A program made the translations under genes and the position numbers. Source: Chryseolinea soli (GTDB lineage Bacteria; Bacteroidota; Bacteroidia; Cytophagales; Cyclobacteriaceae). Taken from it: a stretch of DNA of 64,000 nt. Shown here one piece after another: positions 5,748 to 30,624 of this stretch. The stretch is from assembly GCF_003589925.1 (NCBI RefSeq), contig NZ_CP032382.1, positions 6,324,001 to 6,388,000 of the forward strand. The letters run 5' to 3'. The notes under the pieces were generated by a model. The model was not told the DNA's origin and made no database searches. It worked only from the letters and a program-made list of their open reading frames with translations. Numbering within the stretch: position 1 is the first letter of the stretch; every line of letters begins with the position of its first letter.

Positions 5748-8144
5748 CTACTCCGCCCTCAATATTTTCGCTGGATTCACCAACGCCGCCTTAATCGCCT
5801 GCGCACTTATGGTCAGCACCGAAATCAACAACGGTATCACCAGCGCAACCGCCAGCACGATCCATCCCACATCCGTATGATACGTAAACGTCTCCAACCA
5901 CTCCCTCATCAACATCCATCCCACTGGCCCGGCAATAAGCACCGACACCAGCACGAGCTTTGAAAAATCTTTTGTCAACAACACCACAATTCCTGCCACC
6001 GGTGCACCCAACACTTTACGAATGCTGATCTCTTGCAAGCGCTGGCGGATCATGAACGTGGAGAGTCCGAACAATCCGAGGCACGCAATGAAAAACGACA
6101 GCCCGGCAAAAACATAAAACACTGTCTGCATCTTGCGCTCAGTTGCATATTGCTGTTCAAGCGAGTCGTCCACAAATGCGTAGTGCAGCGGCACGTCCGC
6201 TACCATCTTGGCCCACACCGTTTCCAGGTGTTTGATAGCGTCCTGGATATGCGCCGTCTTCACACGGAGCGACATGCTGCCGCCGGTCTTGGCGTAGCCG
6301 ATCAGTAAGGGCTGCACGGACATGTGGAGGTCTTCGAAGTGAAAGTCCTGGACAACACCAACGACGTAGCGGATGTCGTCACCGCCGCCAAAGGGTTTGC
6401 CAAGGGCGTTGTCGGCCGTGCCCCAACCGAGGTTGCGGACGGTGGCTTCATTGACGATGACGGCCTTTGCCGAGTCGGCCGTGGCGCGCAAGAAGGCGCG
6501 GCCTGCTACGAAGTTCATTTTGTAGGTGTCGAAGTAATCGGGGTCCACGTTCATCCGGTAGATGCTCGTGGTCACTTCTTTGTCGTTGTTGTCGCGGGTG
6601 TTGATCCAGCCGTTGCCCAGGCCTCCTACCACATTAGAGTTGTGCAGACTGGTTTGCTCGATGTAGGGTACCGAAAGCAGTGCATCGCGCAAGGTTTGAT
6701 ATTTCTTCTTCACGGCATCGTCGCCGTTGAAATCGACGGTGATCACGCCATGGCCTTCATAGCCCAGGGGTTTGCTGGCGATGAATTGCATTTGGCGGTT
6801 CACGGTGAGAATGGAAATCAGCAACACCGTAGAGATGACGAACTGCACAATAACCAGGGCCTTGCGGAAGGTTTGTCCGCCCTCGCTGCTAAAAAACTTT
6901 CCGCGCAATGCCGCCATGGGTTGAAACGACGACAGCACAATGGCCGGATAGATGCCCGACAGCAACGTGACGATCAGTACAAAGGCAGCCAATGCTAATA
7001 GATTGGTGACATCAAACGGCAACTGGTACGGTTGGCCCATCCACCACGAAAAGTACGGCAACACCATCTGTGCCAACGCGACACCCAGCACTACCGCCAA
7101 CAGCGTAGTAACAAACGTTTCGAGAAAGAACTGACGCATCAGGTTCCCTTTGCTTGCCCCGGCCACCTTGCGCAGCGAGATCTCTTTCGCGCGGTTCACC
7201 GACGTGGCGGTGGTGAGGTTGATGTAGTTGAAACAGGCGAGCAGCAACACCAGGATGGCTACTGCAATGAATACGCGCACCGTCATCAGGTCGCCATTGT
7301 TGGCCGAGTCATAGCGATGATGGGAACGGAGGTGGATGTCTGTAATAGGCTGGAGAAAATATTGGTATGACATTTTGTTGTCGGCCCACTCTTTTTTTGA
7401 ATGTTCGGCCACCACTTCATTGACCTTGTTTTCTACCGCCTTCCACTTCGACGGATCATGGATCTCGATGTAGGTGTGAGGCCATCCTCCTACCCACTGG
7501 TTGTCGATATCGTCTTTCCAGTTCTTGAGGGCATAGGCATGCAAGGTCACGTAGGGAACCACGAAGTCGAATTGAATGTGTGAGTTTACCGGCGGATCTT
7601 CCACGACAGCCGCCACCGTGTAGGGTTCGTCGTCCATTAGCACGGTTTTATCCACGGCATTTTCAACACTTCCGAAATAGGCTATGGCCTTCGCGCGCGT
7701 GAACACCACCTGGTCGGGTGTACGAAGAAGTTGGTGCGTCGAGCCGGCGATGATGGGAAAGCCGAAGAACGAGAAGAAGGTGGAATCGGCAAAGATGCCT
7801 TCTTGCTCGAAGTTCACTTCCTTGTTGTAGCGGATTTTATAGTTCGCCCTGAACACGCGGCAAGCGCTGGCGATGTCGGCGATTTCTTTGGGCAACTGCG
7901 CCCCCAAGGCCACACCCGAAGGTGCCTGGGAGAACGTTTCGGCTTCGCTCTTAAACGTATTCCAGATGCGGAACTTTGCGTCGGCGTTGGGATGGAAATT
8001 ATCGAACGTCAATTCGCGTTCGGCCCAGATGGCGATGACAAGACAGGTGGCAAGTCCGATCGTGAGGCCGGTCACATTCAGGAATGCCGACACTTTGTTT
8101 TTGGCAAGGTGTCGCCAGGCGGTGGAGAGGATGGCTTTGAACAT
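5748..8144 (-). CDS. ABC transporter permease, MacB/FtsX type (798 aa)
   Basis: Inner-membrane protein of the double-FtsX permease family: N-terminal membrane segment (about 17-42, AFLNVTGLTIGLATCLVIAIW), a MacB-like periplasmic domain (about 45-270), four-helix FtsX block (about 285-420), a second periplasmic domain, and a C-terminal FtsX block (about 670-795). Conserved coupling-helix sequences RAKEISLRKVAGAS and LQEISIRKVLGAP precede the membrane blocks. In Bacteroidota such permeases are common and work with a separately encoded ATPase; none is present in this window. Substrate unknown; the family covers efflux, lipoprotein trafficking and mechanotransmission. It is one of three paralogues here (also 8300-10663 and 13671-16049). 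Confidence 0.88.
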   Translation of the reverse strand: MFKAILSTAWRHLAKNKVSAFLNVTGLTIGLATCLVIAIWAERELTFDNFHPNADAKFRIWNTFKSEAETFSQAPSGVALGAQLPKEIADIASACRVFRANYKIRYNKEVNFEQEGIFADSTFFSFFGFPIIAGSTHQLLRTPDQVVFTRAKAIAYFGSVENAVDKTVLMDDEPYTVAAVVEDPPVNSHIQFDFVVPYVTLHAYALKNWKDDIDNQWVGGWPHTYIEIHDPSKWKAVENKVNEVVAEHSKKEWADNKMSYQYFLQPITDIHLRSHHRYDSANNGDLMTVRVFIAVAILVLLLACFNYINLTTATSVNRAKEISLRKVAGASKGNLMRQFFLETFVTTLLAVVLGVALAQMVLPYFSWWMGQPYQLPFDVTNLLALAAFVLIVTLLSGIYPAIVLSSFQPMAALRGKFFSSEGGQTFRKALVIVQFVISTVLLISILTVNRQMQFIASKPLGYEGHGVITVDFNGDDAVKKKYQTLRDALLSVPYIEQTSLHNSNVVGGLGNGWINTRDNNDKEVTTSIYRMNVDPDYFDTYKMNFVAGRAFLRATADSAKAVIVNEATVRNLGWGTADNALGKPFGGGDDIRYVVGVVQDFHFEDLHMSVQPLLIGYAKTGGSMSLRVKTAHIQDAIKHLETVWAKMVADVPLHYAFVDDSLEQQYATERKMQTVFYVFAGLSFFIACLGLFGLSTFMIRQRLQEISIRKVLGAPVAGIVVLLTKDFSKLVLVSVLIAGPVGWMLMREWLETFTYHTDVGWIVLAVALVIPLLISVLTISAQAIKAALVNPAKILRAE

Positions 8145-8299: not shown

Positions 8300-10663
8300 T
8301 TACTCCGACTTCAACGAATTCACCGGATTCGTCACGGCCGCTTTCAAGGTTTGATAGCTGATGGTCGCCAACGTGATCAGCAACGCCGCGAGCCCGGCCT
8401 GCGCAAAAGTGACCCAGGAGATCGCGACCCGGTAGTCGTATTGGGCCAACCACTTGTTCATATAGTGAAAAGAAACGGGCACGGCCAACCCACAGGAGAT
8501 AATAACCAGCACGACAAAGTCCTTCGAGAGGAGTTGCCACAACTGGGGTACGGACGCGCCCATTATTTTTCTCACGGCGATTTCCTTTGTGCGTTGCTCC
8601 GCCACAAACGACGCCAGTCCAAAGAGGCCAAGACAGGAGATAAAGATGGCCAGGGAGGCGAAGATGCCGGCCAGGGATGCCATCCTTTCTTCGCTGGCAA
8701 ATTTTTTCGCGTAGGCTTCGTCGACAAATTCGAAATCGAAGGGTACGGAGGGATCATATTTCTGAAACACAGGCTCAACTTTCTTCAGCGATTCGCTCAT
8801 GCTTTGGTTGGCGGCTAGTTTTACGGTGATGAAGCCCATCGGAAATGGACTGGCATAGTAGATGGTGGGCTTTACCATTTCGAAGGGCGATTCCATGAGC
8901 ATGTCTTTCACCACGCCGATCACGGTCAGATTGTCTCCATACAACGTGATGCCCTGTCCTACCGGGTCTTTGAATCCCATCAGCTGAGCGGCGGTCTGGT
9001 TGATGATAATTGATTTTATATCGGCCACTTGCCGCATCATATCACGGCCAGCAATGATTTCGTAGCCCATCACTTTGCCAAACTCGGGGCCTATGCCGAT
9101 CGTGCCAAAAAGTGGATGGTATTCGGGATCCTTGCCTTGCCACGTGAGGGATGTCGTCAGGCCGCCGTAGCCGGTGACGGCGGTCGATGATTCGGCAACT
9201 TCCTCGATGGCACCGGTCTGCAGCAGGTCATGGCGCAGGGCATCGAAGTGGTCGTGCAAGGTGGTGGTGTTGGATTGAATGGTGATGAGTCTTTCACGGT
9301 TATATCCCGAAGGCCGTGTCTTGGAGTGTTGGATCTGGTTGTAGACGATCATGGTCGATACAATGAGAATGATCGATACGGAGAATTGCGTGACGACCAA
9401 CACTTTTCTGGGAATGACGGCAAACTTGCCGGCGCGGGATGTTCCGCGTAAGATTTTAGCCGGTCGAAAAGAGGACAAGTACAACGCCGGGTAACTGCCG
9501 GCAAAGAAACCAGTGATCAAACAGAACGACAATGCCGACAACCATAAAAGGGGATTCGACCAAAGTATCGTGATGTCTTTGTCGGCGATGGTGTTAAAAG
9601 TCGGAAGCGTCAATTGCACCAGGACCAATGACAGGCCAAAGGCAAGACCGACCACCAGGAAGGTCTCGCTGAAAAGCTGCGTGATGAGTTGAGTTCTGAA
9701 CGAACCGAGCGTCTTGCGAATGCCGATTTCCTTCGCGCGCTTTTCCGACCGCGCCGTGCTGAGGTTCATAAAGTTGATGCAGGCCAACACAACGATGAAC
9801 ACGCCGATCAGAGAAAAGACCTTCACGGATTCGATGCGGCCACCCACCAGCTTGCCGTCTTGCCAGGTGCTATGCAAATGCCATTGGCTCATCGGGTGCA
9901 GGAAGAACTCGGGTTTGTAGGGGATCTTGCTATCCTTCTTCATCCGGATGTCTTTGATCAATCCCGACACGACAGCGAAGTCGGCTCCTTCTTTTAGTTG
10001 TGCGTAGACCTGGTAATTATTGTTCTCCCAGTTTCCCACATTTGACTTTGCAGCAAAATCATTGGTGACAAACAGGCTCCAGGGGGCAATGAAATTTACG
10101 TTCCAGAAGTCGCTGTTGCGGGGAATGTCTTCGTAGACACCGGCGACGGTAACGGTGAGCTTGTTGTCGATGGTCAGGATCTTGTTGATGGCGCTTTCGT
10201 TGCCGAAGAGCATCTGCGCATAGGATGCCGAGAGCAAAATGGAATTCATGTCCTTCGAATCATTTCCCTCGACCACTTTCACACTCATCATGCCGGTGAA
10301 GTCCGGCTCGGCATAGATGCCTTGCTTGGCGAATTTATTGTCTTCGTAGGCCACGGTGGGCATGGAGAAATAGGCCATCGCGACTTTTTCAAAGTCGGGA
10401 TAATGCTCCCGGAGTTCGTCTGCCATGGGGCTGGGCATTACTGTATAAGGTGCTTTTTTGCCATCGAAGGTCACGAACTGGTAAACCTGTGCGACGCGCG
10501 GGTATTGACTATGGTAGTGATTGAAGGACAACTCATCGTACACCCACAACCCAATCAGCATCGCGACCGCCATACCTGCAGCAAGCCCTCCGATGTTGAT
10601 GACGGAATAAACTTTGCTTTTGAGGATGCTTCTCCAGCCGGCTTTGATATAACTTTTGAACAT
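8300..10663 (-). CDS. ABC transporter permease, MacB/FtsX type (787 aa)
   Basis: Second paralogue with the same architecture: membrane segment near 17-42, MacB-type periplasmic domain, FtsX block after the coupling sequence RAKEIGIRKTLGS, a second periplasmic domain, and a final FtsX block after TKEIAVRKIMGAS. The stop is about 155 bp upstream of the start of the 798-residue permease, so the two may be cotranscribed. It is closer in sequence to the third copy (13671-16049) than to the first: both share the TARSEKRAKE/KRSKE stretch and a similar C-terminus ending NSLKSE/KSLRTE. No ATPase partner is seen. Confidence 0.88.
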   Translation of the reverse strand: MFKSYIKAGWRSILKSKVYSVINIGGLAAGMAVAMLIGLWVYDELSFNHYHSQYPRVAQVYQFVTFDGKKAPYTVMPSPMADELREHYPDFEKVAMAYFSMPTVAYEDNKFAKQGIYAEPDFTGMMSVKVVEGNDSKDMNSILLSASYAQMLFGNESAINKILTIDNKLTVTVAGVYEDIPRNSDFWNVNFIAPWSLFVTNDFAAKSNVGNWENNNYQVYAQLKEGADFAVVSGLIKDIRMKKDSKIPYKPEFFLHPMSQWHLHSTWQDGKLVGGRIESVKVFSLIGVFIVVLACINFMNLSTARSEKRAKEIGIRKTLGSFRTQLITQLFSETFLVVGLAFGLSLVLVQLTLPTFNTIADKDITILWSNPLLWLSALSFCLITGFFAGSYPALYLSSFRPAKILRGTSRAGKFAVIPRKVLVVTQFSVSIILIVSTMIVYNQIQHSKTRPSGYNRERLITIQSNTTTLHDHFDALRHDLLQTGAIEEVAESSTAVTGYGGLTTSLTWQGKDPEYHPLFGTIGIGPEFGKVMGYEIIAGRDMMRQVADIKSIIINQTAAQLMGFKDPVGQGITLYGDNLTVIGVVKDMLMESPFEMVKPTIYYASPFPMGFITVKLAANQSMSESLKKVEPVFQKYDPSVPFDFEFVDEAYAKKFASEERMASLAGIFASLAIFISCLGLFGLASFVAEQRTKEIAVRKIMGASVPQLWQLLSKDFVVLVIISCGLAVPVSFHYMNKWLAQYDYRVAISWVTFAQAGLAALLITLATISYQTLKAAVTNPVNSLKSE

Positions 10664-13670: not shown

Positions 13671-16049
13671 TTATTCCGTTCTTAAACTTTTTGTAGGATT
13701 CATCCACGCGGCCTTGAGCGCCTGATGGCTAACGGTGAGCAACGTAATGGCCAGGACAAGCAATCCTGTGGCAACGAAAGTCACCCATGATATTTCGACG
13801 CGATATTCATATTGTTCCAGCCATTGGGTGGCCAAATAATAGGCCAAGGGCGCACCCAATAAAATGGCTGCCAGGACCAGACGCACAAAATCGCTGGAAA
13901 GCATTTTCCATAAATTAAATACCGAGGCTCCCAGCACTTTGCGGATGCCAATTTCTTTCGTGCGCTGGCTGGCGGCAAATGCGGCCAAGCCAAAAATCCC
14001 CATGCAACTGATAAAAATTGTCAGGATGGAAAATATGGTAGCCAACTTACCAATGCGTTCCTCGCCACTAAACTGCCGCGCGTAATCATCGTCCAGAAAT
14101 TTGTATTCAAACGGGGCTCCAGCGTCGAACTTCTTTATGACAGACTCGATCTTTTCCAAGGCATCGTGCGGCCTTGCCTGTGGATTCAAACGGATCGTTA
14201 AATAGCCCACGCTCGTATAACTGACATAGTACAGGTGTGGTGACTGCTTTGCAAACGGGGTCCAACGGACCTGATCTTTTATCACGCCGATGATCTCCCG
14301 CTCCTTTCCGAAGAAGCTCAGCTTTTTGCCTATGATATTTTTCTCAGAGATCAGTTTCGCGGCCAGTTCGTTTATGATCACCGCGGCAGAATCCGAGCTG
14401 AACTCCCGCGAAAAATCACGCCCCTCAACAAATTGAAAACCATTTGTTTTTGGAAAGTCATGGCTGCAACTGTTCATGGCCACCAAAGGCCGCAGCGCCG
14501 GATCTTTCCCCTCCCAGGTCAGGGATGCGTCGGCGCTCATCGCGCCCGTGATGGGGAAGTCGGATATCGCCATATTTTCAACAGCCCCCGACGACAGAAG
14601 TTCGTGACGCAAGGAGTTGTAATTCGCTTTTGCCAAATCTTCCGTTCGGATGGCGATGTGGAGAATGCCCTCCCGGTCAAAGCCCACCGGTCTGTCTTTT
14701 GCGTGTTGAATTTGACGGAAGACGATCATGGTACTAATGATGAGCACAATAGAAGTCGTGAATTGAAAGATGACCATGATCTTTCGCGGCAAGGCTGCAA
14801 AACGGCTTGCTTTGAATGCACCTTTCAAAACCCTGACCGGATTGAAAGACGATAAATACAATGCCGGGTAGCTGCCAGCCAGAAAACCCGTGACGACGAT
14901 GAATGTCAGGGATACCAAAACAAACTTCAGATCCGTCCATGGCATGGTCATCTTTTTATCGGCCAAGACATTGAACCAGGGTAAAGAAACAGCTGCCATG
15001 ACCAGCGCCAATAAAAAACCAATCGTCACCATCAGCAGCGACTCGCTCAGGAACTGGGCCACTAATTGGTTGCGCGCAGACCCCATTACTTTTCGAACGC
15101 CTACTTCCTTTGAGCGTTTCTCGCTGCGGGCGGTGCTGAGGTTTGTAAAATTTATACACGCCAAAAGCAGGACAAAAACTCCAATAATGCCAAACATCCA
15201 CACAAACTTGATTTGCCCACCCTTGTTAATGCCATCTTTAAATTCACTATAGAGATGCCATTTCTTCATGAGAAATATAATGCCTTCGGGTTTGACGGCT
15301 TTCCCATCGTTCGAGGCTTTATCATAGAGGACATGTTTTATTTTGGGTTCAACCTGATCGAACAGCCCTTCATTTTTCAAGAGCACGAAACACTGAAACG
15401 TATAGCTTTCCCAGCTATTCTGGGTCTTTCGGTTGGCTTCGCTGGCGCTGAAGTAATACGCCATCGGCAACAACATCTTGATGTCTGCAAAGGATGAGTT
15501 CGCTGGAAAATCTTCAAATACACCGGTAACCGTGAGCAGGTCCCGGTTATCGAATTTTATCATTTTACCAACCGGCGAATCACCAAACAACGAACCAGCC
15601 AGTGTTTTGGAGACCATGACGGAGTGAACGTCGTTCAACGCCGACGTGCCCTGCGCTATCTGAATAGAAAACATGCTGACAAACTGAGGCTCCACAAAAA
15701 GGCCGCTCTTCGACAATTTCGTTTCATTATAAGCAACAATATGTTCCCGGGGCCAGGAGGCCATGGCCACTTCTTCAAATTCGGCAAAATTGCTTTTTAA
15801 GGCCTCACCGATCGGCGCGGGAACATCATTGAGCGTCAGGGTCTCCTCGCCGAACGTCATATGATGATAAACCTGCCCGAGGCGATCATAGTTTTTAAAC
15901 GACCTGTCATAATTCAATTCATCAAAAACCCACAGCCCAATCAGGAGGGCAACGGCCATGCCAATGGCCAGACCACAGATGTTGATAAAAGAATATCCTT
16001 TGGTTCTGATGATGCTGCGCCAGCCGATGGTAAAGTAGTTCTTGAGCAT
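13671..16049 (-). CDS. ABC transporter permease, MacB/FtsX type (792 aa)
   Basis: Third paralogue: N-terminal membrane segment (about 18-42, SFINICGLAIGMAVALLIGLWVF), MacB-like periplasmic domain, FtsX block after KRSKEVGVRKVMGSA, second periplasmic domain, and last FtsX block after TKEIGIRKVLGAS. The SDR-HxlR pair and the secreted hypothetical gene lie between it and the other two copies. The polysaccharide genes are upstream on the same strand, separated by heptamer repeats that could fold into a long hairpin. No ATPase gene is nearby, so its partner must be encoded elsewhere. Confidence 0.88.
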   Translation of the reverse strand: MLKNYFTIGWRSIIRTKGYSFINICGLAIGMAVALLIGLWVFDELNYDRSFKNYDRLGQVYHHMTFGEETLTLNDVPAPIGEALKSNFAEFEEVAMASWPREHIVAYNETKLSKSGLFVEPQFVSMFSIQIAQGTSALNDVHSVMVSKTLAGSLFGDSPVGKMIKFDNRDLLTVTGVFEDFPANSSFADIKMLLPMAYYFSASEANRKTQNSWESYTFQCFVLLKNEGLFDQVEPKIKHVLYDKASNDGKAVKPEGIIFLMKKWHLYSEFKDGINKGGQIKFVWMFGIIGVFVLLLACINFTNLSTARSEKRSKEVGVRKVMGSARNQLVAQFLSESLLMVTIGFLLALVMAAVSLPWFNVLADKKMTMPWTDLKFVLVSLTFIVVTGFLAGSYPALYLSSFNPVRVLKGAFKASRFAALPRKIMVIFQFTTSIVLIISTMIVFRQIQHAKDRPVGFDREGILHIAIRTEDLAKANYNSLRHELLSSGAVENMAISDFPITGAMSADASLTWEGKDPALRPLVAMNSCSHDFPKTNGFQFVEGRDFSREFSSDSAAVIINELAAKLISEKNIIGKKLSFFGKEREIIGVIKDQVRWTPFAKQSPHLYYVSYTSVGYLTIRLNPQARPHDALEKIESVIKKFDAGAPFEYKFLDDDYARQFSGEERIGKLATIFSILTIFISCMGIFGLAAFAASQRTKEIGIRKVLGASVFNLWKMLSSDFVRLVLAAILLGAPLAYYLATQWLEQYEYRVEISWVTFVATGLLVLAITLLTVSHQALKAAWMNPTKSLRTE

Positions 16050-16113
16050 AGGGAGGGTGGTTAAAGTTGAAGCTTCGAGGCTTAGGATGACGCGGACGGC
16101 GAAAAAGTTTCAA

Positions 16114-16169
16114 GGGAGCCAGAAGCCGGGAGTCAGGAGCCAGAATCCAGGAGCCAGGAGCCAAGAGCC
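16114..16169 (+). repeat. Heptanucleotide tandem repeat (8 copies), left arm of inverted repeat
   Basis: Eight 7-bp units, consensus [AG]GGAGCC (for example GGGAGCC, AGAAGCC, AGGAGCC, AGAATCC, AAGAGCC). Bases 16133-16163 are the exact reverse complement of 16295-16325, giving a perfect 31-bp inverted repeat with a 131-bp spacer. It lies just upstream of the 792-residue permease gene. Confidence 0.85.
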
Positions 16170-16278
16170 ATGGGTTAGATCTAGAGTTGGTGTCAAATTG
16201 GAAGTAAGCACTCGCCTGACCGCGTGGCGAAATAGCCAATTGCAATCATGCGTTATCATGCCTCCTAAGTTCCTGAAT

Positions 16279-19200
16279 TCAAAATTTCGAATTCTGGCTC
16301 CTGGCTCCTGGATTCTGGCTCCTGATTTCGAACCACGGTGTATTCAAAGTGCCGATCGCTGTATACACTTCTCCGTCCTTCTCCCCGATCAGGTAGAGAC
16401 GGTATGTAAGGGGATCCTCTGGAATCTCGAGTGTAATCTGGGGTCCGGTGCCTAGTTTCTCGAGATAAACACCGTTGCCAAATGCATCCAATTTGAGAAG
16501 GTACCATTCAAAGTTGAGTGCCGGGGTTGTGGCGTCGGGAGTTTTCCAAATTGTTCCGGCTTTGATGATCGCGTGATACGTAAGTTGTTGGGTTGGGATC
16601 GTCGCGATCGCGGGGCGGAGAATTTTAATTTGTAACGTGTCCGCCTCGGGTCTGGCTCCGGTCGGCGCCCAAAGCTGGCGTAGCTGAAAGTATTCCGGTT
16701 TCGGTCGCCCCCAATGATCGACCAGGCCGTCGAGTGTGACGATGTTTCTCTCTTGCAAATCCTGCCACTCGGCGATGTACCCGCCATTGAACCTGCTTTC
16801 GAGTTGGCGCAAGGCCGACACGGGCGCTGCACTCAGGAACAATGGCCCATCAATATTTTTCAATATGTCGATCCCGGTATCCTCTTCGCGAATGACCACG
16901 CCGAAAGCGTCTACGCCGTGAACATTTGCCTGAAGCAATGTGAGATCATGTTTGATCGTTTCGGAAAAAGGCAGATCGAGTGTCACGGGGCGGTAGGGAT
17001 CGATTTTCTTGATGGAATGAACTAAGTTATTCAGCCAATGCATGTAGGCCGATTGATGAAAGAAAAGTTCAGGTTTGGGGTAGCGTTCTTTCTGGCGTTT
17101 CCACAAAAGATTGTCGAGATTCCAGGCAATGATGTTTGGGTCATTTTTATAGCGCTCAACGGCGGCAAGAATTTCGGTTTGGCAATTATTCAACTGCTTG
17201 CTGTTGGTCAATACATACAACTGGTCATCAATCCAGAAGTTATAGTGGATCTTCATTCCCGCCTCAGCGGCGACGCTCAGTATATTTTTGTCATAGACAC
17301 CGGGTCCGTAACGCTTGATCGTCGTGACCCCGAGTGCCTTCATCTCCCCGATGTCGTGACGCAATTCCTTTCTGGTGAGGGCGTGGAAATTCTTAAACCA
17401 GTTTTTTCCTTTTGAAAAATTCATTCCGTGTAGGGAACGCAGCCATGCCGTGTCCGTTGGATGCGTTTGCTTTGCTTCCCACAACATTTGTGGAGGCATG
17501 TCCATGACACGGGGATGCCTGGCACGGATTAGGTTTGCCACAGGGTGAGGAATGCTCCAGTCGAGCTTGTGTAGCCCTGCCGTTACGCCGGGAACCACGT
17601 TGTCGTCGAATGCCGAATTGAATAGAATGCAGCCTTCGATCTCGTTAAAAACGGTGTCGATAGAACTGCGTGCATCTCTGAACCATTTTTCCTGCTCCTG
17701 GCGATTCAGCGTTCCCATCTCCGCCACCATCACCGGAACGCCGGAGCGAAATAGTTCGAGGGCATGGAAGGGAGCATAGATCGAATCGAAGGGGATGGCG
17801 GAATTTCCGGGTAATGAATAATCCAGGCCGGTGATCGAAAGCCAATCGACATACGCCGTGCCCGGAAAGAATGCCGTGGCGTTTTCGGCTTTCCATGGAC
17901 TCCACACCCAGATGACGTTGGTGGCGCCTGCCCATTGAAAGAGATTGAATACGTGAATCCAGGCCTGCCTAAATTCGGCCGGCGTATTCTGTCCGGTTCC
18001 CGACCAGGGATAGGCCGGGTTATCAAACTCATGCGCAAACCGGAGGAACACCGGCTCATGAAACGATTTCAACTGCAACGCGAATTTCAGAATATAGTCA
18101 TCAAACAGACCTTTGCTGATGTTCGCCAGGGCCTTGTGCTCCCTGCTCAAATCACGGTGATCTTCTGCTTGGGGAAAATGACTTACCCACGGCTCCCAGG
18201 TGATGAAGGGTATCGACCCGCGATCGTACACAGCCTGCATAGCCGCGGCATCGGGAAAAGAATTGGTATCGACACCCCACGGAATATAAAAGGAAAGCAG
18301 GTCAAAATGAGTGCCCGCCGATTTTTCAAAAGCGGCAACATCATTGAGCGAAGTCAGCCCGTCATCTTTTACCGGTTGGAAAATTCCGTTGTAAAAAATT
18401 TTCTCCGGTGGAAAATAGACAAAAGGCACATCCGGTATCTGCTGCCCGCGATGCACGACATATCCGGTGAACGCCATCGCCGCCAGAACAGCCGGGAGTG
18501 CAAGCCCGCGCATGGCGAAGTAAAGCTGATGCCGGAACAGCCAGAACAGCCGCTTGCCGTAATGTAAATATCCCGCCATTTTCCTGACCGCCTCCGAAGG
18601 ATGGTACCGGAGTGCCACGGGCTGTCGCGAGGCCATCACCATAAACGTCATGAACAATACGTTGAGGCTGGTGACACCCGCCATAAAAATAGAGTATGGG
18701 TTCCAGTCGATGTAAAGTCCATAGACGATCGCGAGCAGCGACAACACCCCCACGATAATATTGGGAATGGATATCGACCAACTGTCGCGTTCGGTGGTTT
18801 CCTTGGGGGTAGGAATATAGGGAACTTTTTTCCGCACGATCGTATAGACCAGCCCCACCATATAGATCCACCACGTGCCGATCAACAGAATACCGCCCAC
18901 CACATGAAAGCCTCGCTCCTCTTCCTCCATGACCCAGCGCTGCACATATTGCCGGATCATCAGGACCGAGACCACAAAAGGAAACCCGACGATGGCAAAG
19001 GTGACCAGGTCCACCTTCAGCGGAATAATGCCCAGCGTGAGCGACACCACCGGCACGATAAAGTTGATCAGAAAGATTACTCCCGAAAAATAGTGAAAGG
19101 GCAATATCCCGTAGTGCAGGCGTTGGCGCCAGGTGAATTTTGTGAACAACCTTGGATAAGTGGTGAACAGCAATTCAAACGTTCCGCGCGCCCACTTCAG

Positions 19201-20091
19201 TTGCTGTTTGTAGTAGGCCGACAAGGTCGAGGGAACCAAGCCTCGGGTCAGTACTTCCGGAACATAGACCGATCGCCATCCCCTGGCGTGCAACTGCATC
19301 GCGGTGTGCATGTCTTCGGCCAGCCCCGCGGCGTGACCGCCAATGGAGTCCAGCGCACTTCTCCGGAAGGTGCAGTTGGCCCCGATGGCCATCACGGTTC
19401 CATATTGGTTCATGGTCATCATCATGGGACCATAGAACTGAAAGGTCTGCTGCGCTGCACCTTTCGCCACGAGAGACTCATCAAGATTGCTGTAGGCCTG
19501 CACCACCTGGACATAGCCAATCTGCGGGTCGATAAAATACGGGACCACGCTATCCAGAAATTCCGGCACCGGCACATGATCCGGATCGAGCACCACGCAG
19601 AGCTCGCCCGTTGCCTGCTTCAGGATATTATTGATATTCCCAGCTTTCGCATCTTCCCGTGTGTTCCGGGTGACGTGCACTACGCCGAGTGCGTCACATA
19701 ATTCTTTGATATAGGGGTCATTGCCCTCATCGCCCAAATAGGTCGTGTGGGGATAACGGATCGCCTGGATGGCGCGCAGGGTTTCTTCGATCATCTCGTA
19801 GGGCTCGCCCGGGCAGAATGTGGTCAGGATATCGACCGTGAACCGTTGTTGTGTGTCGGGCCTGTCCGGCACACGGATATGAAAGTAATGGTACCACTCG
19901 TGCAAAACTTTCAGACAGTTGAAGGCGATGGCAAGGATCAGCAGCCAGTAAAAAACACGGTGCCCGATGTATTCCGGCTGCAAGAGATTGTAGACAAAGT
20001 ACAACATGCTCAGCAAACCAAAGATGATCATCACCTGCAACATCAGTCGTTCCAACCGCGAAGGGGCTTTTACAGGCGTATGCTTCTTCAT
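16279..20091 (-). CDS. Trimodular glycosyltransferase 2 - GH26-like - GH2-like fusion (1270 aa)
   Basis: Residues 1-65: two membrane segments. Residues 80-310: a processive family 2 glycosyltransferase with GDEGND (D121), LDPDH (D169/D171), LAEDMH (D260) and QQLKW (296-300), the cellulose-synthase-type D,D,D,Q(Q/R)xxW set. Residues 325-547: about six membrane helices. Residues 553-855: a GH26-like hydrolase with FLRFAHEFDN (acid/base E688) and PVMVAEMGTL (nucleophile E791). Residues 885-1140: a GH2-type TIM barrel that reads AWNLDNL where an acid/base glutamate (WxLGNE) is normal, so it may be inactive; E1108 in YIAEWQD could be the old nucleophile. Residues 1150-1255 look like a beta-sandwich. 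Inferred: a beta-glycan is made and trimmed or bound by one protein. The start overlaps the upstream stop by ATGA. The polymer is unknown. Confidence 0.85.
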   Translation of the reverse strand: MKKHTPVKAPSRLERLMLQVMIIFGLLSMLYFVYNLLQPEYIGHRVFYWLLILAIAFNCLKVLHEWYHYFHIRVPDRPDTQQRFTVDILTTFCPGEPYEMIEETLRAIQAIRYPHTTYLGDEGNDPYIKELCDALGVVHVTRNTREDAKAGNINNILKQATGELCVVLDPDHVPVPEFLDSVVPYFIDPQIGYVQVVQAYSNLDESLVAKGAAQQTFQFYGPMMMTMNQYGTVMAIGANCTFRRSALDSIGGHAAGLAEDMHTAMQLHARGWRSVYVPEVLTRGLVPSTLSAYYKQQLKWARGTFELLFTTYPRLFTKFTWRQRLHYGILPFHYFSGVIFLINFIVPVVSLTLGIIPLKVDLVTFAIVGFPFVVSVLMIRQYVQRWVMEEEERGFHVVGGILLIGTWWIYMVGLVYTIVRKKVPYIPTPKETTERDSWSISIPNIIVGVLSLLAIVYGLYIDWNPYSIFMAGVTSLNVLFMTFMVMASRQPVALRYHPSEAVRKMAGYLHYGKRLFWLFRHQLYFAMRGLALPAVLAAMAFTGYVVHRGQQIPDVPFVYFPPEKIFYNGIFQPVKDDGLTSLNDVAAFEKSAGTHFDLLSFYIPWGVDTNSFPDAAAMQAVYDRGSIPFITWEPWVSHFPQAEDHRDLSREHKALANISKGLFDDYILKFALQLKSFHEPVFLRFAHEFDNPAYPWSGTGQNTPAEFRQAWIHVFNLFQWAGATNVIWVWSPWKAENATAFFPGTAYVDWLSITGLDYSLPGNSAIPFDSIYAPFHALELFRSGVPVMVAEMGTLNRQEQEKWFRDARSSIDTVFNEIEGCILFNSAFDDNVVPGVTAGLHKLDWSIPHPVANLIRARHPRVMDMPPQMLWEAKQTHPTDTAWLRSLHGMNFSKGKNWFKNFHALTRKELRHDIGEMKALGVTTIKRYGPGVYDKNILSVAAEAGMKIHYNFWIDDQLYVLTNSKQLNNCQTEILAAVERYKNDPNIIAWNLDNLLWKRQKERYPKPELFFHQSAYMHWLNNLVHSIKKIDPYRPVTLDLPFSETIKHDLTLLQANVHGVDAFGVVIREEDTGIDILKNIDGPLFLSAAPVSALRQLESRFNGGYIAEWQDLQERNIVTLDGLVDHWGRPKPEYFQLRQLWAPTGARPEADTLQIKILRPAIATIPTQQLTYHAIIKAGTIWKTPDATTPALNFEWYLLKLDAFGNGVYLEKLGTGPQITLEIPEDPLTYRLYLIGEKDGEVYTAIGTLNTPWFEIRSQNPGARSQNSKF
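16289..16325 (-). repeat. Heptanucleotide tandem repeat (5 copies), right arm, inside coding sequence
   Basis: Read on the plus strand the units are GAATTCT, GGCTCCT, GGCTCCT, GGATTCT, GGCTCCT. The array forms the last codons of the GT2-GH26 gene, whose C-terminus therefore reads RSQNPGARSQNSKF with a 7-residue periodicity. It looks like a repeat that spread into the gene end. Confidence 0.85.
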
Positions 20092-21398
20092 TTCACAACA
20101 TAAAAAGGTGTGTTGGCCGACGCAAAATTTCCATAGGCGTCATAGATCCAGCAATAGATACGATAGGGGCCTTCGGTTTTCGGTACGCGAAAGGTCGCGT
20201 TGAGCCCATCTACCTGGGATAACAACGAATCCAATGCGGGGGGAGGTATCTTGTTCTTGTTTGAGTCGTCAAATTGTTCCTTATACCAGTCTTCCGGACG
20301 CACTTCCCATCGCAGCCGCAGGCCTTCCGCCGGTTGTGTCAATAGGATCTCTGCTTGGTGAACCGTATTCGGCTGGAAAATGAGATTGTCGTGCGCGCCT
20401 TTTTGATCGACGAGCATGTAATTCAACGGTGGCCCTGGATGAAGCACCGTCGGGCCGTTCCATAGGGTGGTCAGCGAGCCAATAGATGCCGACTTCGCTC
20501 CGTCGTCCGAAAACATGCTGAACCACGTCGGTGTTTTCTCGTGCTGAAATCCCCAGTAGAATACCAGCGATCCCAGGTAACGCGGATTGTCATAAGGCAT
20601 AAGCGTCGTATAGATCGATTTATAACGCTCGGCTTTTTTGGTGCTGGTATCTTCAATCGGTGCACCCCAGGCTGTGCTGTCGCTTTCCCAATAGCCATTG
20701 ATCCCCCATTCGCCTACCACGAAGGGACCATCCCAAAACCAGCTGAAATGATCGAGATCTTCTTTTAAGGACGAAATTCTGCCATAGGTGTTTATTGAAA
20801 TGATGTCCAAATCAGGAACTTTAGTGCGAACGTGGTAGATATTTTTTCTTCCGAAGCCCAGAAGCGCCGTGGTTACCGGATGGTCGGGGTCCTTTCGGTG
20901 GATCATTTTCAGGAGGTTGTTGTAGGCCGTAAAGAAATCATCCTGGGGCTCGTAGAAATAGTGCAGTTCATTTCCCAGGCACCACATGAGCAAGGCCGGA
21001 TGATTTTTGTAACGGTTGACAATCGCCTCCATTTTTTGGTGGAGCTTGTTCACGGCCTGGCTGTCGCTGTAATATTCCTTTACGTGATTTGAGTTGTACA
21101 AAGGGAGGCCCGCCACCACCGCGATGTGATAATGCTGTGCGCTGTCGAGGATGTTTTGAAGGTTCGTGGTGTCCCAGGTCCGGATGGTGTTGCCGCCGGC
21201 ATCCCGGAGCTCTTTCAGATGGGTGAATCCAGCAACGCCCTTGATGACAAAAGGCACCTGATCGCGGATCAATGTATAGTGCTCGCCTTCACGCATGACG
21301 TGAACTTTACCGGTGGCGGTATATTCCTTTCGGTCTGAACAGGTCAGTACACTCAGACCGATGAAAACGAAAAAGAGCAGGGTCTTTAAAGATCGCAT
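20088..21398 (-). CDS. GH2-like TIM-barrel glycosidase, putative lipoprotein
   Basis: A 436-residue exported protein. The N-terminal hydrophobic stretch ends VLTCSD, so C20 may be lipidated, although the -1 threonine is not an ideal lipobox. Residues 45-300 form a glycosidase TIM barrel like the catalytic domain of GH2: NHPALLMWCLGNEL holds the acid/base E144, and PFVVGEWGINGY the nucleophile E230. Residues 325-436 look like a beta-sandwich. It lacks the N-terminal domains of classical beta-galactosidases. The stop overlaps the start of the GT2-GH26 fusion (ATGA), so the two are probably translated together and act on the same glycan. It resembles the third module of that fusion but keeps both catalytic glutamates. 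Confidence 0.8.
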   Translation of the reverse strand: MRSLKTLLFFVFIGLSVLTCSDRKEYTATGKVHVMREGEHYTLIRDQVPFVIKGVAGFTHLKELRDAGGNTIRTWDTTNLQNILDSAQHYHIAVVAGLPLYNSNHVKEYYSDSQAVNKLHQKMEAIVNRYKNHPALLMWCLGNELHYFYEPQDDFFTAYNNLLKMIHRKDPDHPVTTALLGFGRKNIYHVRTKVPDLDIISINTYGRISSLKEDLDHFSWFWDGPFVVGEWGINGYWESDSTAWGAPIEDTSTKKAERYKSIYTTLMPYDNPRYLGSLVFYWGFQHEKTPTWFSMFSDDGAKSASIGSLTTLWNGPTVLHPGPPLNYMLVDQKGAHDNLIFQPNTVHQAEILLTQPAEGLRLRWEVRPEDWYKEQFDDSNKNKIPPPALDSLLSQVDGLNATFRVPKTEGPYRIYCWIYDAYGNFASANTPFYVVK

Positions 21399-22334: not shown

Positions 22335-23891
22335 ATGACCATGAGAAAAATTTTATCCGCCTTCCTCCTCTTTGCCTGCCTCTCCCATGGGTCGGCTCAA
22401 CCCACCAAAGCCAAAGATTTTATTGTAAAAGGTTTCCACCTGGACCTGCGCATCCAGGTAATGTCGCCCGAGGCATTGAAAGATCTAGCCTTGCGGCTGA
22501 GTCGCAGCGGCATCAATACGCTGGTCATGGAATGGGAAGGAACGTACCCTTTTGAAAAGCATCCGCTGATCGCCAACCGGTATGCCTATAGCAAAGAAGA
22601 AGTGACGGACTTTATACGCTATTGCAAGGGGTTGGGAATAGATGTGATCCCGCTGCAGCAAAGCTTTGGGCATGTAGAATATATCCTGCGGCACCCGCGC
22701 TACAAAGATCTTCGCGAAGATCAGAAAGACTATTCGCAGGTCTGTCCGCTGAAGGAAGAATTGAACCGCGCGCTGTTCAACGATCTGTTTACCGAACTGG
22801 CCTCCACCCATCCCTCCAAGTATTTTCATATCGGGGGCGACGAAACCTATTTGCTGGGCCACTGCGATCAATGCCGTTTGAAAGCCGAGAAGGAAGGAAA
22901 ATCCAAGCTCTATATCGATCATATCAAAATGCTGGCCGAGCTGGTGATCCGGCTGGGCAAACGCCCGGTGCTCTGGGCCGACATCGCCTTGAAATATCCT
23001 GAGGCCTTAAAGTCGCTTCCCCCGGAAACACTGTTCATCGATTGGAACTACGGATGGGAAATGAACCGCTTCGGCGACCACCAAAAACTCATGGAGAGTG
23101 GTTTTGAGATCTGGGGTGCCCCCTCCCTGCGCAGCCATCCCGACAACTACTTCCTGACACAGTGGGAAAAACATTTCAAAAACATCCGCGATTTTGTTCC
23201 GGCCTCCCGCAAGCTGGGCTACACCGGCATTGTGATGACCTCCTGGTCGACGTCCGGGATCTATTCGTCGGTCTTTGAGTCCAGCAACGACATCATCGAC
23301 CTGTATGCCATCCGCCATGTCTACCCGCTAACCGGTTTCCCGATGTTGCTGGCAGCCTATACCGAAAGCCTGAAATCAACGGCACCGCTGGACATTCCGG
23401 CTTTCATTCAGAAATATGGAAGTGAGACCTATGGTTTTACGAAGGAGCAGTCGCTTCAATTCTGGAAAGCACTGCGAACGGCTCCCTATGAAATCCAACA
23501 AGGAGAAGTGGCGGCACCGATGACCTTATCGATTCAAAATGTGTTGGACAGCGCCACGATGGCAGCCCAGTGGCTTCGCGAACTTCAGCCTTCAAAAAAC
23601 AAAGATGAGTTTGAGCATTACCGATTGATGGCCGACATACGGGTGCTGTACCTGGACTACCAGCGCATCGAAAAGCAAGCGAACGCCGTGTCGTTCAGTC
23701 AAAAAGATCTTCCGGAGGTTTTGAAAAAACTGAAAGGCCTGATCGATCAGTCCGGCGATCTGAACCGACGGTTTATTGCTTTGAATAAAGGAACGCTTCA
23801 TCCCGCAGAAATGGAACAGGAAAATGCTTTGCGCATCGACAAGGCAAAACTGCTCTATGCGCGGTTATCCAAACAGCGAACCGCTCCATAG
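22335..23891 (+). CDS. Secreted GH20 beta-N-acetylhexosaminidase-like glycosidase
   Basis: A 518-residue enzyme with a signal peptide (MRKILSAFLLFACLSHGSAQ). The TIM barrel of family 20 begins at GFHLDLR (about residue 33). The catalytic pair is in KYFHIGGDETYLLG (Asp-Glu), and WADIAL and FIDWNYGW contribute conserved tryptophans. It lacks the N-terminal GH20b domain of many hexosaminidases, which fits the short Bacteroidota branch. It should cleave terminal GlcNAc or GalNAc, or a related sugar, in the periplasm. Start choice: ATG 22335 and 22341 both give a good signal peptide. The next gene follows after 2 bp, so they form an operon. Confidence 0.85.
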   Translation: MTMRKILSAFLLFACLSHGSAQPTKAKDFIVKGFHLDLRIQVMSPEALKDLALRLSRSGINTLVMEWEGTYPFEKHPLIANRYAYSKEEVTDFIRYCKGLGIDVIPLQQSFGHVEYILRHPRYKDLREDQKDYSQVCPLKEELNRALFNDLFTELASTHPSKYFHIGGDETYLLGHCDQCRLKAEKEGKSKLYIDHIKMLAELVIRLGKRPVLWADIALKYPEALKSLPPETLFIDWNYGWEMNRFGDHQKLMESGFEIWGAPSLRSHPDNYFLTQWEKHFKNIRDFVPASRKLGYTGIVMTSWSTSGIYSSVFESSNDIIDLYAIRHVYPLTGFPMLLAAYTESLKSTAPLDIPAFIQKYGSETYGFTKEQSLQFWKALRTAPYEIQQGEVAAPMTLSIQNVLDSATMAAQWLRELQPSKNKDEFEHYRLMADIRVLYLDYQRIEKQANAVSFSQKDLPEVLKKLKGLIDQSGDLNRRFIALNKGTLHPAEMEQENALRIDKAKLLYARLSKQRTAP

Positions 23892-23893
23892 CC

Positions 23894-24799
23894 ATGTTAA
23901 AAATAGGAATAGTCGGTCTGGGCGACATTGCGCTAAAGGCCTATCTCCCGGTGATCAGCACCCGGGATGTCGAAGTTCATCTCTGCACCCGGAACGAAGC
24001 GCAGCTAAAAAAAATTGGTGCGCAATACCGGTTCAATCATTTGCATCGCACGGTGGAGTCGCTTATTCAAAGTGGCGTTACAGGTGTGTTCGTGCATACG
24101 GCAACAGCATCGCACGAGGCGATTGTGGAGCAGCTCCTGTTTAACAACATTCATGTTTATGTGGACAAGCCCCTTACCTACCATTACGCTTCCGCGGAAA
24201 AACTGACGGGGCTGGCCACAAAAAACAATCTCCAGCTTCACGTCGGGTTCAACCGGAGGTTTGCGCCCGCGTATCAATATGCGGGCGCACTCCCGTCTGC
24301 AAATCTCATGGTCCTGCAAAAAAACCGGAGCTATTTACCCGGCGAGGTCCGGACGTTTATTTTTGATGATTTTATTCACGTCGTCGACACACTGCTCTAC
24401 TTGTTCCCCCACCCGATCGAAAAAATGATCGTCAATGGCAAAAAGAAAGACGGGCTTCTGAATCACGTCGTCGTCCAGTTCATTGCTGCCGACGGCACGA
24501 CGGCGATCGGTATTATGAATCGCGACAGTGGCACCGTGGAAGAACGTTTGGAGGTCGCTAGTCCGGACGAGAAGCGGGTTGTCGTTAACTTGACGGATGT
24601 CACCGTATATCGCGACAGGAACGAGACGCACATTGTGCGCGACGATTGGGAACCTACGTTGCGGAAGCGGGGCTTTGATCAGGTTGTTGATCATTTTTTG
24701 CAGGCTTTGAAATCAGGCTCATCGCATCCAATTTCTACACCCGATTTCTTGTTCACGCATAAAATCTGCGAGCAGATCGTGGAGCAGTTGAAGGATTGA
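23894..24799 (+). CDS. Gfo/Idh/MocA-family oxidoreductase
   Basis: A 301-residue protein. The N-terminal Rossmann fold (IGIVGLGDIALKAYLP, residues 3-18) binds NAD(P); VYVDKPLTYHY carries the EKP-like lysine motif (here DKP) of this family, and LHVGFNRRFAPAY is the conserved GFNRRF stretch that starts the substrate domain. It is shorter than the usual 340-380 residues. It starts 2 bp after the GH20 gene, which suggests that it oxidises or reduces a sugar set free by the hexosaminidase, but the substrate cannot be assigned. Cytoplasmic. Confidence 0.88.
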   Translation: MLKIGIVGLGDIALKAYLPVISTRDVEVHLCTRNEAQLKKIGAQYRFNHLHRTVESLIQSGVTGVFVHTATASHEAIVEQLLFNNIHVYVDKPLTYHYASAEKLTGLATKNNLQLHVGFNRRFAPAYQYAGALPSANLMVLQKNRSYLPGEVRTFIFDDFIHVVDTLLYLFPHPIEKMIVNGKKKDGLLNHVVVQFIAADGTTAIGIMNRDSGTVEERLEVASPDEKRVVVNLTDVTVYRDRNETHIVRDDWEPTLRKRGFDQVVDHFLQALKSGSSHPISTPDFLFTHKICEQIVEQLKD

Positions 24800-29112: not shown

Positions 29113-30624
29113 TTATCGCGTCTCGGGGAATTTAAAATAGAATTCACCGATAATGTTGGAGCTATCCCACGTGTTTTGCTTGTTGGCCGAAAGCCGGAGC
29201 ACACTTTGGCGCACCTCCTTGAAAACCTGCTCGATGGTTAGCCCGGGCTTGCGCATGGCTTTAAGGAGTTCCTGGGTATACAGCCCATTGCGCCCCGGCC
29301 CGTCTGACGCAATAGAGCCCGGAGCGGTGGCATAGGCGATGAACGACCCGCGGGCGCGGCGCATCTCCATGAGGCCCTGCTCGCCCAGGGACCGGCTCAG
29401 GGCGGGGAACGGGTTGTTGCGGCAGGCGTCCAGGATCACGATGTTCATGCGGGAATTGGAGCGCTCCATGTTGGCCAGCACCATGCGCTGCACGGGAAAG
29501 CAATAGCGCGCAATGTCGTCCTCGAACTCGATCATGGCATCGATGGGCACCAGGTAGTTCTCGTCATCGCGCTGCAAACCGTGTCCGGCGTAGTAGAACA
29601 GCGACACGGTCTTGTCGCGTTCGCCGGCGTCCACCTTCTCTTTGAAACGGAGCATGGCGGCACGCATTTGTCCATAGGTGGCATTGGTGAGCAGTTGCAC
29701 CTCGAAGTTGGAGTTCTGCAATTCCTTGGCGAAATCGGTTGCATCGTTCACGGGATTCTTCAAAACACCGATGCTCTTGGGGTAGTTGCTGTTGCCGATC
29801 ACGAGGGCATAGCGTTTTTCATCCTTATAAAAATCAGCAACAGAAGGCGTTGCCACCACGGGTACCGCCGCCGCTACCACCTTGTCTTGGGTCACCGGGG
29901 TTGTGGTTGACGGCACAGCGTCCTGCTTTGCCGTCGTGTGGGCCGGCTCGTCCTTTTTGGCCACGACGGGATCTTTTTTAACGGACTCGTCCTTTTTTAC
30001 CCCGGTGTCTTTCTTCGTCTCGGGGGTATTAGCCGGTTGATTGACGGGGGGCCCTGCGACCGCTGTATTCCGGCCGGCCACGTTTTGCTTGTCCAGTTTT
30101 TCGAGGTCGCGCCGGATGTCGGCGTTGTTGGGTTGCAGGGTGGCACCGCTCTTGAGATCGGCAACCGCCAACGCGATCTGCCCGAGCTTGGTGTACAGCT
30201 GGCTCCGTTCGTAGAGAAGCTTCGCTTTTGCTTCGGCATTAGCATCCAACTCCCGGAGCGCACTGGTGTAGGCCCCTACCGCTTCTTTGGTGTCGCCGGT
30301 TTTGTCATAGCTTTTGGCCACAAACCAATAGATGTTGCCTTTGTTGGGATGGTCGAGCAGAACGGCTTCTTCAAAATCGGCGACGGCGTTTTTGAAATCG
30401 TTGGTCTTGTAATAGGAAAGCGCCCGCAGGTAAAACACCTCGCCGTCCATCGACTTGTCGCGGGTGGCTTTGCCGAGGTATTCTGAAAAGTTTTTGATGG
30501 CCTCCGCATATTGGCCCGACGTGTAGCTGTCGTGGCCTTTCTCATAGAGCTTGAATTGCGCCGCGGCAGATTGCCATAGCCCCAGCGTTAGAAACAAAAT
30601 AGTGGTAAGCTTCCCGGTTTTCAT
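29113..30624 (-). CDS. TPR - caspase (peptidase C14) protein, copy 1 (503 aa)
   Basis: Signal peptide of about 22 residues (ends AAAQ). Residues 25-180 form four or so tetratricopeptide-like repeats (YTSGQYAEAIKNFSEYL, YYKTNDFKNAVADFEEAV). Residues 181-260 are a low-complexity linker rich in K, T, P and V. The caspase domain (about 268-500) has RYALVIGNSNY, histidine H348 in YYAGHG and cysteine C401 in LDACRNNPF, the complete His-Cys dyad. It should act in the periplasm or at the cell surface. It is the last gene of a three-gene minus-strand unit (spacing 70 and 29 bp) with an outer-membrane barrel and a second caspase. Partners and substrates unknown. Confidence 0.9.
   Translation of the reverse strand: MKTGKLTTILFLTLGLWQSAAAQFKLYEKGHDSYTSGQYAEAIKNFSEYLGKATRDKSMDGEVFYLRALSYYKTNDFKNAVADFEEAVLLDHPNKGNIYWFVAKSYDKTGDTKEAVGAYTSALRELDANAEAKAKLLYERSQLYTKLGQIALAVADLKSGATLQPNNADIRRDLEKLDKQNVAGRNTAVAGPPVNQPANTPETKKDTGVKKDESVKKDPVVAKKDEPAHTTAKQDAVPSTTTPVTQDKVVAAAVPVVATPSVADFYKDEKRYALVIGNSNYPKSIGVLKNPVNDATDFAKELQNSNFEVQLLTNATYGQMRAAMLRFKEKVDAGERDKTVSLFYYAGHGLQRDDENYLVPIDAMIEFEDDIARYCFPVQRMVLANMERSNSRMNIVILDACRNNPFPALSRSLGEQGLMEMRRARGSFIAYATAPGSIASDGPGRNGLYTQELLKAMRKPGLTIEQVFKEVRQSVLRLSANKQNTWDSSNIIGEFYFKFPETR

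Follow-up and report, generated by a model that had tools for sequence, protein, structure and literature searches.

Mixed-linkage glucan is best known from grasses. Few bacteria have been reported to make it, among them Sinorhizobium meliloti and Romboutsia ilealis (PMC10374906, in its available passages). Two described kinds of synthase carry their own processing domains. In pseudomonads, a BcsA-like GT2 carries a periplasmic GH17, and the accessible portion of PMC10237404 presents the proposal that the GH17 cleaves and cyclises the chain; pseudomonad GT2-GH17 proteins also appear in the available part of PMC11005184. Cyclic beta-1,2-glucan synthase combines a GT2 with a GH189 transglycosylase and a GH94 domain, to which the accessible text of PMC11842490 assigns "adjustment". 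Excerpts of two further papers describe a GH26 in an actinomycete polysaccharide cluster predicted to be of the Wzx/Wzy kind (PMC13390465) and GH113 genes that lie near GT2 genes and are not fusions (PMC9032380). No published GT2-GH26 fusion was found in the openly licensed PMC literature, a silence that carries little weight.

The locus described here lies in a 64,000-nucleotide stretch of Chryseolinea soli DNA, the whole of which is referred to as the window, and consists of two overlapping genes. Both genes, and all features placed within them below, are on the minus strand.

A three-module chain in a single reading frame

The synthase gene (16279..20091) is open for 1270 aa and encodes, in this order, a GT2, a GH26 module, and an apparently dead GH158 relative. 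The GT2 catalytic core occupies residues 80-310 (19162..19854) and the membrane part residues 320-550 (18442..19134); the GH26 module spans residues 564-865 (17497..18402) and the third module residues 881-1255 (16327..17451). The earlier note had proposed such a three-module chain, a proposal that would fall if domain searches failed to find GT2 and GH26 together or if an assembly error or frameshift had fused two genes. Pfam detects GT2 and GH26 above its cut-off in the one ORF, with a GH2 barrel slightly under it, and an artefactual fusion is vanishingly improbable, because the identical fusion recurs in homologues (the best 120 of 1107) as well as in the 79 kept loci (see below) and because the whole chain is under purifying selection. 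The GT2-GH26 junction is continuous. The three-module chain is real, and an assembly artefact is excluded.

Relative to the Chryseolinea serpens orthologue, which is 80% identical to the window synthase and differs at its C-terminal end, dN/dS was 0.05 for the GH26, 0.10 for the GT2 and membrane part, 0.11 for the Ig-like domain, 0.13 for the third barrel, 0.15 for the GT2-GH26 junction, and 0.40 for the GH26-barrel linker, all of these being rough values because dS was 0.8-2.1. The 15-residue C-terminal tail (16279..16326) is supplied by a dispersed genomic repeat of heptad type (GGCTCCT). One 15-base form of this repeat occurs 54 times in the genome and 0 times in the control, and an inverted copy lies immediately downstream of the synthase gene, at about 16100-16170.

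Distribution and natural variants

A search that scored the 7994 candidates with the most words in common gave 1107 homologues with E values of 1e-3 or less. The best 120 of these align over 94-100% of the query and are 46-100% identical to it, and the names among them include Chitinophaga, Pedobacter, and Chryseolinea. A scan of one genome per species across 84,980 species found 410 stretches encoding relatives, the best 80 of which were kept as 79 loci; these, together with the window, are the 80 loci to which the counts below refer. Genera such as Chitinophaga, Pedobacter, Larkinella, Dyadobacter, Robertkochia, Gelidibacter, and Neolewinella appear in their record titles, and we take the genera named to be all Bacteroidota. 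The same module order, for which the earlier note had suggested searching this phylum, is accordingly found in other Bacteroidota, both among the best 120 of the 1107 homologues and in the kept loci, although the counts lean to this architecture because the loci are closest relatives only. The synthase is 1220-1324 residues long throughout the 80 loci, except in L044 and L093, which run into contig ends, and L084 (1112 aa). Its spread is patchy: 16 of 395 genomes of the phylum have a match with E of 1e-60 or lower, in some cases a partial one, and among six genomes of the window's genus the whole protein occurs only in the window's and one other. No plasmid record matched the whole protein at E 1e-60.

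Among wider relatives, the modules are found in other combinations. GT2-barrel proteins without GH26 (L122, L123) stand beside a GH26-like gene, with a GH158 upstream; the GH26-like gene of L122 is not recognised by Pfam, and in L114/L115 both glutamates align. L128 is a GT2-GH26 protein without the barrel, with GH158 beside it. A degenerate GH26-like end, again with GH158 beside it, is present in L108, L109/L124, L110/L131, L012/L125, and L113, none of which keeps both glutamates. In the distant split relatives L117, L119, and L129, a TPR gene, the GT2, and the GH26 are three neighbours, and GH158 was not found in the stretches examined, nor in those of L118 and L121, which have a GT2-only relative. 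The fused and unfused variants together indicate that this GT2 tends to be accompanied by GH26 and GH158, with exceptions. The split loci (L117:6684-11198, L119:6038-10475, L129:566-4804) resemble an exporting polysaccharide operon, and the TPR protein of L119 has, judged by eye, a barrel-like C terminus. In a further relative (L120:5956-11489), the synthase and the GH158 are each broken into several frames.

GT2 and predicted membrane topology

The GT2 is of the processive BcsA type, with the D, D, (E)D, QxxRW set and a membrane channel with a gating loop. D121, D171, E259-D260, and QQLKW (296-300) are all present, leaving intact the catalytic set that the earlier note had read; in one wider relative (L011), Cys replaces D121. 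The motif YIPTPK lies at residues 425-430, and its T428 and K430 are kept in 80/80 loci. The NCBIfam cellulose synthase (CelA) model scores 170 bits, its cut-off being 699, so the synthase is not BcsA proper, and a Pfam scan matched no PilZ domain in it. It is 30% identical over 288 GT2 residues to an S. meliloti protein that we take to be BgsA because of its HlyD-type neighbour. Reading the linkage from a GT2 tree failed, as the clade of the synthase falls outside the BcsA and BgsA-like references and the tree has long branches that meet.

The first two membrane helices lie at residues 12-36 and 45-70, and further ones at 336-353, 362-386, 438-461, 465-495, and 531-550, as judged from an AlphaFold model, hydropathy, and charges. 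Helices 396-419 and 500-529 are taken as interface helices, the former by analogy with BcsA. This arrangement predicts periplasmic GH modules, and the periplasmic placement proposed by the earlier note is upheld as a prediction, which is ambiguous by hydropathy: a plain scan flags 397-415 and does not flag 362-386, and if both were counted as membrane helices, the GH modules would be cytoplasmic. The full-length AlphaFold model leaves out residues 1201-1270, and its domain arrangement carries no score.

GH26 and GH158-derived modules

The GH26 module is recognised by Pfam above the cut-off, is predicted to have the barrel fold, and carries both catalytic glutamates (E688 and E791) noted previously. 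It is nearest, in sequence and in predicted fold, to the lichenase CtLic26A (147 bits; the next GH26 scores 48 bits), which we take, by its PDB titles, to be a hydrolase of mixed-linkage glucan. Both glutamates are kept in 120/120 of the best homologues (of 1107). One or both are lost in 12 of the 80 loci, both in five of these; among five more distant relatives, none (0/5) has both glutamates and two keep the first, and L010 has Asp at the first position.

The third module had been read as a GH2-type hydrolase, an assignment that does not stand. The PDB entry closest to it by sequence only is a GH2 beta-mannosidase (E 2e-4, with BuGH158 at only 0.67). In the AlphaFold model (pLDDT 91.7), the module is predicted to form a GH158-type barrel followed by an Ig-like domain, and its best fold match is GH158, with Foldseek TM-scores of 0.53-0.61 and rmsd of 3.7-5.3 on superposition. 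In place of the two glutamates in the Asn-Glu/Glu set of GH158, the synthase has L995 at the acid/base and A1088 at the nucleophile position. The acid/base Glu is present in 0/120 best homologues and 0/80 loci, and the nucleophile Glu in 12/120 and 12/80, respectively. The acid/base position is Asp in 25/80 loci, so that weak activity of the module is possible there. We therefore regard the third module as an apparently dead GH158 relative; an active GH2 module was rejected, the GH2 model falling under cut-off, the nearest fold being GH158, and the glutamates being absent. N994, also considered as the acid/base, is the conserved Asn, residue 995 being assigned as acid/base from alignments to the partner protein and the beta-mannosidase and from the BuGH158 paper.

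An overlapping GH158 gene

The partner gene (20088..21398) overlaps the start of the synthase by 4 bases and encodes a 436-aa GH158 protein with a lipobox-like N terminus. It matches PDB GH158 structures along nearly its whole length (E 4.3e-62, residues 35-433, and E 3.4e-51) and retains N143, E144, and E230, from which we predict a live enzyme, activity being known for relatives such as BuGH158. It is the sole match to its own sequence in the window's genome at E up to 1e-3. This gene gives the best hint of the substrate and was missed by the earlier reader. In 80/80 loci, a GH158 gene or a fragment of one lies next to the synthase on its upstream side, 78 by the distance rule and two (L051, L064) that overlap further owing to the start chosen; four are fragments, three at contig ends (L044, L050, L093) and one in two frames (L082). 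With the fragments dropped, the catalytic residues are intact in 76/76 aligned copies, of which 56 have a lipobox-like start by a loose pattern and several others look membrane-anchored. The adjacent GH158 of wider relatives keeps Asn-Glu and Glu in 15/15 (two spurious ORFs dropped). No other neighbour family occurs in more than 14 of the 80 loci within the flanks examined, and hence there is no conserved exporter.

Elsewhere in the window are a divergent pair encoding a GH20-like protein and a Gfo/Idh/MocA oxidoreductase (22335-24799, plus strand), a TPR protein with a caspase-like (Peptidase_C14) domain (29113-30624, minus strand), and three MacB/FtsX permeases (5748-8144, 8300-10663, and 13671-16049, minus strand); the two permeases scanned with NCBIfam match the ADOP duplicated-permease model under its cut-off.

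Proposed function and alternatives

The pairing of a GH26 nearest to a mixed-linkage glucanase with a member of a beta-1,3-glucanase family, around one synthase, suggests beta-(1,3;1,4)-glucan as the product, both substrate and product being read from the sequence relationships. Against this reading, BuGH158 acts on mixed-linkage glucan with an efficiency about 100-fold lower than on Laminaria digitata laminarin. We propose, with the scales evenly balanced, that the two genes encode a beta-glucan machine in the inner membrane of Bacteroidota, perhaps for mixed-linkage glucan, with fused and separate cutters. The GT2 would extend a beta-glucan with a sugar, probably glucose donated by UDP-glucose, and drive the product across the membrane by a channel of its own. 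Once in the periplasm, this chain would pass the fused lichenase-type GH26, which may cut or transfer it, the dead GH158 module may hold or steer it, and it would then pass the separate, membrane-anchored, live GH158. Holding, release, and length control are roles that we infer for the modules; the cutters may set chain length or release the chain, as proposed for the pseudomonad GH17 and as GH94 does in cyclic glucan synthase. More tentatively, and with the balance tilting against it, a mixed-linkage synthase may edit its own product through a fused GH26 and a partner GH158 of complementary linkage preference, with the dead GH158 as a grip or ruler setting the cut site; on the same joint and doubtful claim, the system would do for 1,3;1,4-glucan, at the inner membrane and in the periplasm, what cyclic glucan synthase does for its own product.

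Instead of cutting, the GH26 and/or GH158 might act as transglycosylases, closing the chain into a ring or linking its pieces together again, so that the periplasmic glucan would be cyclic or branched. The closest fused analogue has been proposed to act in this way (PMC10237404, accessible portion), BuGH158 is described as retaining, and a conserved exporter is missing beside the pair; we nevertheless consider this unlikely, since CtLic26A (by its PDB titles) and BuGH158, the closest relatives that have been characterised, are hydrolases. BcsZ is thought to clear stalled or stray cellulose chains, and the hydrolases could likewise remove such chains from the periplasm with no measuring of length. 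The loss of GH26 catalytic residues in 12/80 loci fits such a clearing role, as do the split relatives with a TPR gene, which look like an exporting cellulose-type operon, but the fusion and the adjoining GH158 in 80/80 loci suggest action on most chains rather than an occasional clean-up, and we hold clearance to be quite unlikely. Very unlikely, in our view, is a pure beta-1,3-glucan product on which the live GH158 works and the GH26 is mainly a grip. It would suit the preference of GH158 for beta-1,3-glucan and the contrast between GH158 residues kept in 76/76 aligned copies and GH26 losses in 12/80 loci; the nearest relative of the GH26 is a lichenase, however, and its glutamates are kept in all 120 best homologues at a dN/dS of about 0.05.

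If the two-gene beta-glucan machine is real and its product is mixed-linkage glucan, this polymer would be made by a compact unit across many soil and marine Bacteroidota, and the protein family, with its naturally occurring live and dead hydrolase modules, would be a ready test bed for how the product of a synthase is cut, held, and released.

Comparison with known systems

The pseudomonad "Orphan"/NdvB proteins are likewise BcsA-like GT2s fused to a periplasmic, glucan-acting GH and are proposed to make and then process the chain in one polypeptide. Theirs is a GH17 on the N-terminal side (PMC11005184, available part), whereas the GH26 is C-terminal here; GH17 is absent from the Pfam matches of the window synthase, and the accessible portion of PMC10237404 describes no GH158-derived module. 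Cyclic beta-1,2-glucan synthase also makes, processes, and adjusts the length of a glucan in one chain, but does so with transglycosylase and phosphorylase domains, yields a beta-1,2 product, and is larger (2765 residues in the 8rfe chain, compared with 1270 aa here). The two modules after the GT2 are here barrels of GH26 and GH158 type, and neither Pfam nor NCBIfam matched a GH94 domain in the synthase. In comparison with BcsA and its separate BcsZ, the hydrolase is fused, the GH families are others, and PilZ is unmatched. The bacterial mixed-linkage glucan synthases BgsA and RiGT2 share the BcsA-like GT2 and possibly the product, RiGT2 differing in its C-terminal PilZ domain. BuGH158 shares catalytic residues and whole-length similarity with the partner, and its fold with the third module; it belongs to a glucan-utilisation locus, whereas here one copy is dead and fused and the other stands beside the synthase. 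Given the GT2-GH17 and GT2-GH189-GH94 precedents, the "new design" that the earlier note saw in a fused synthase and hydrolase was overstated. As far as our searches reach, what is new lies in the combination of families, in the dead GH158 module, and in the constancy of a GH158 neighbour.
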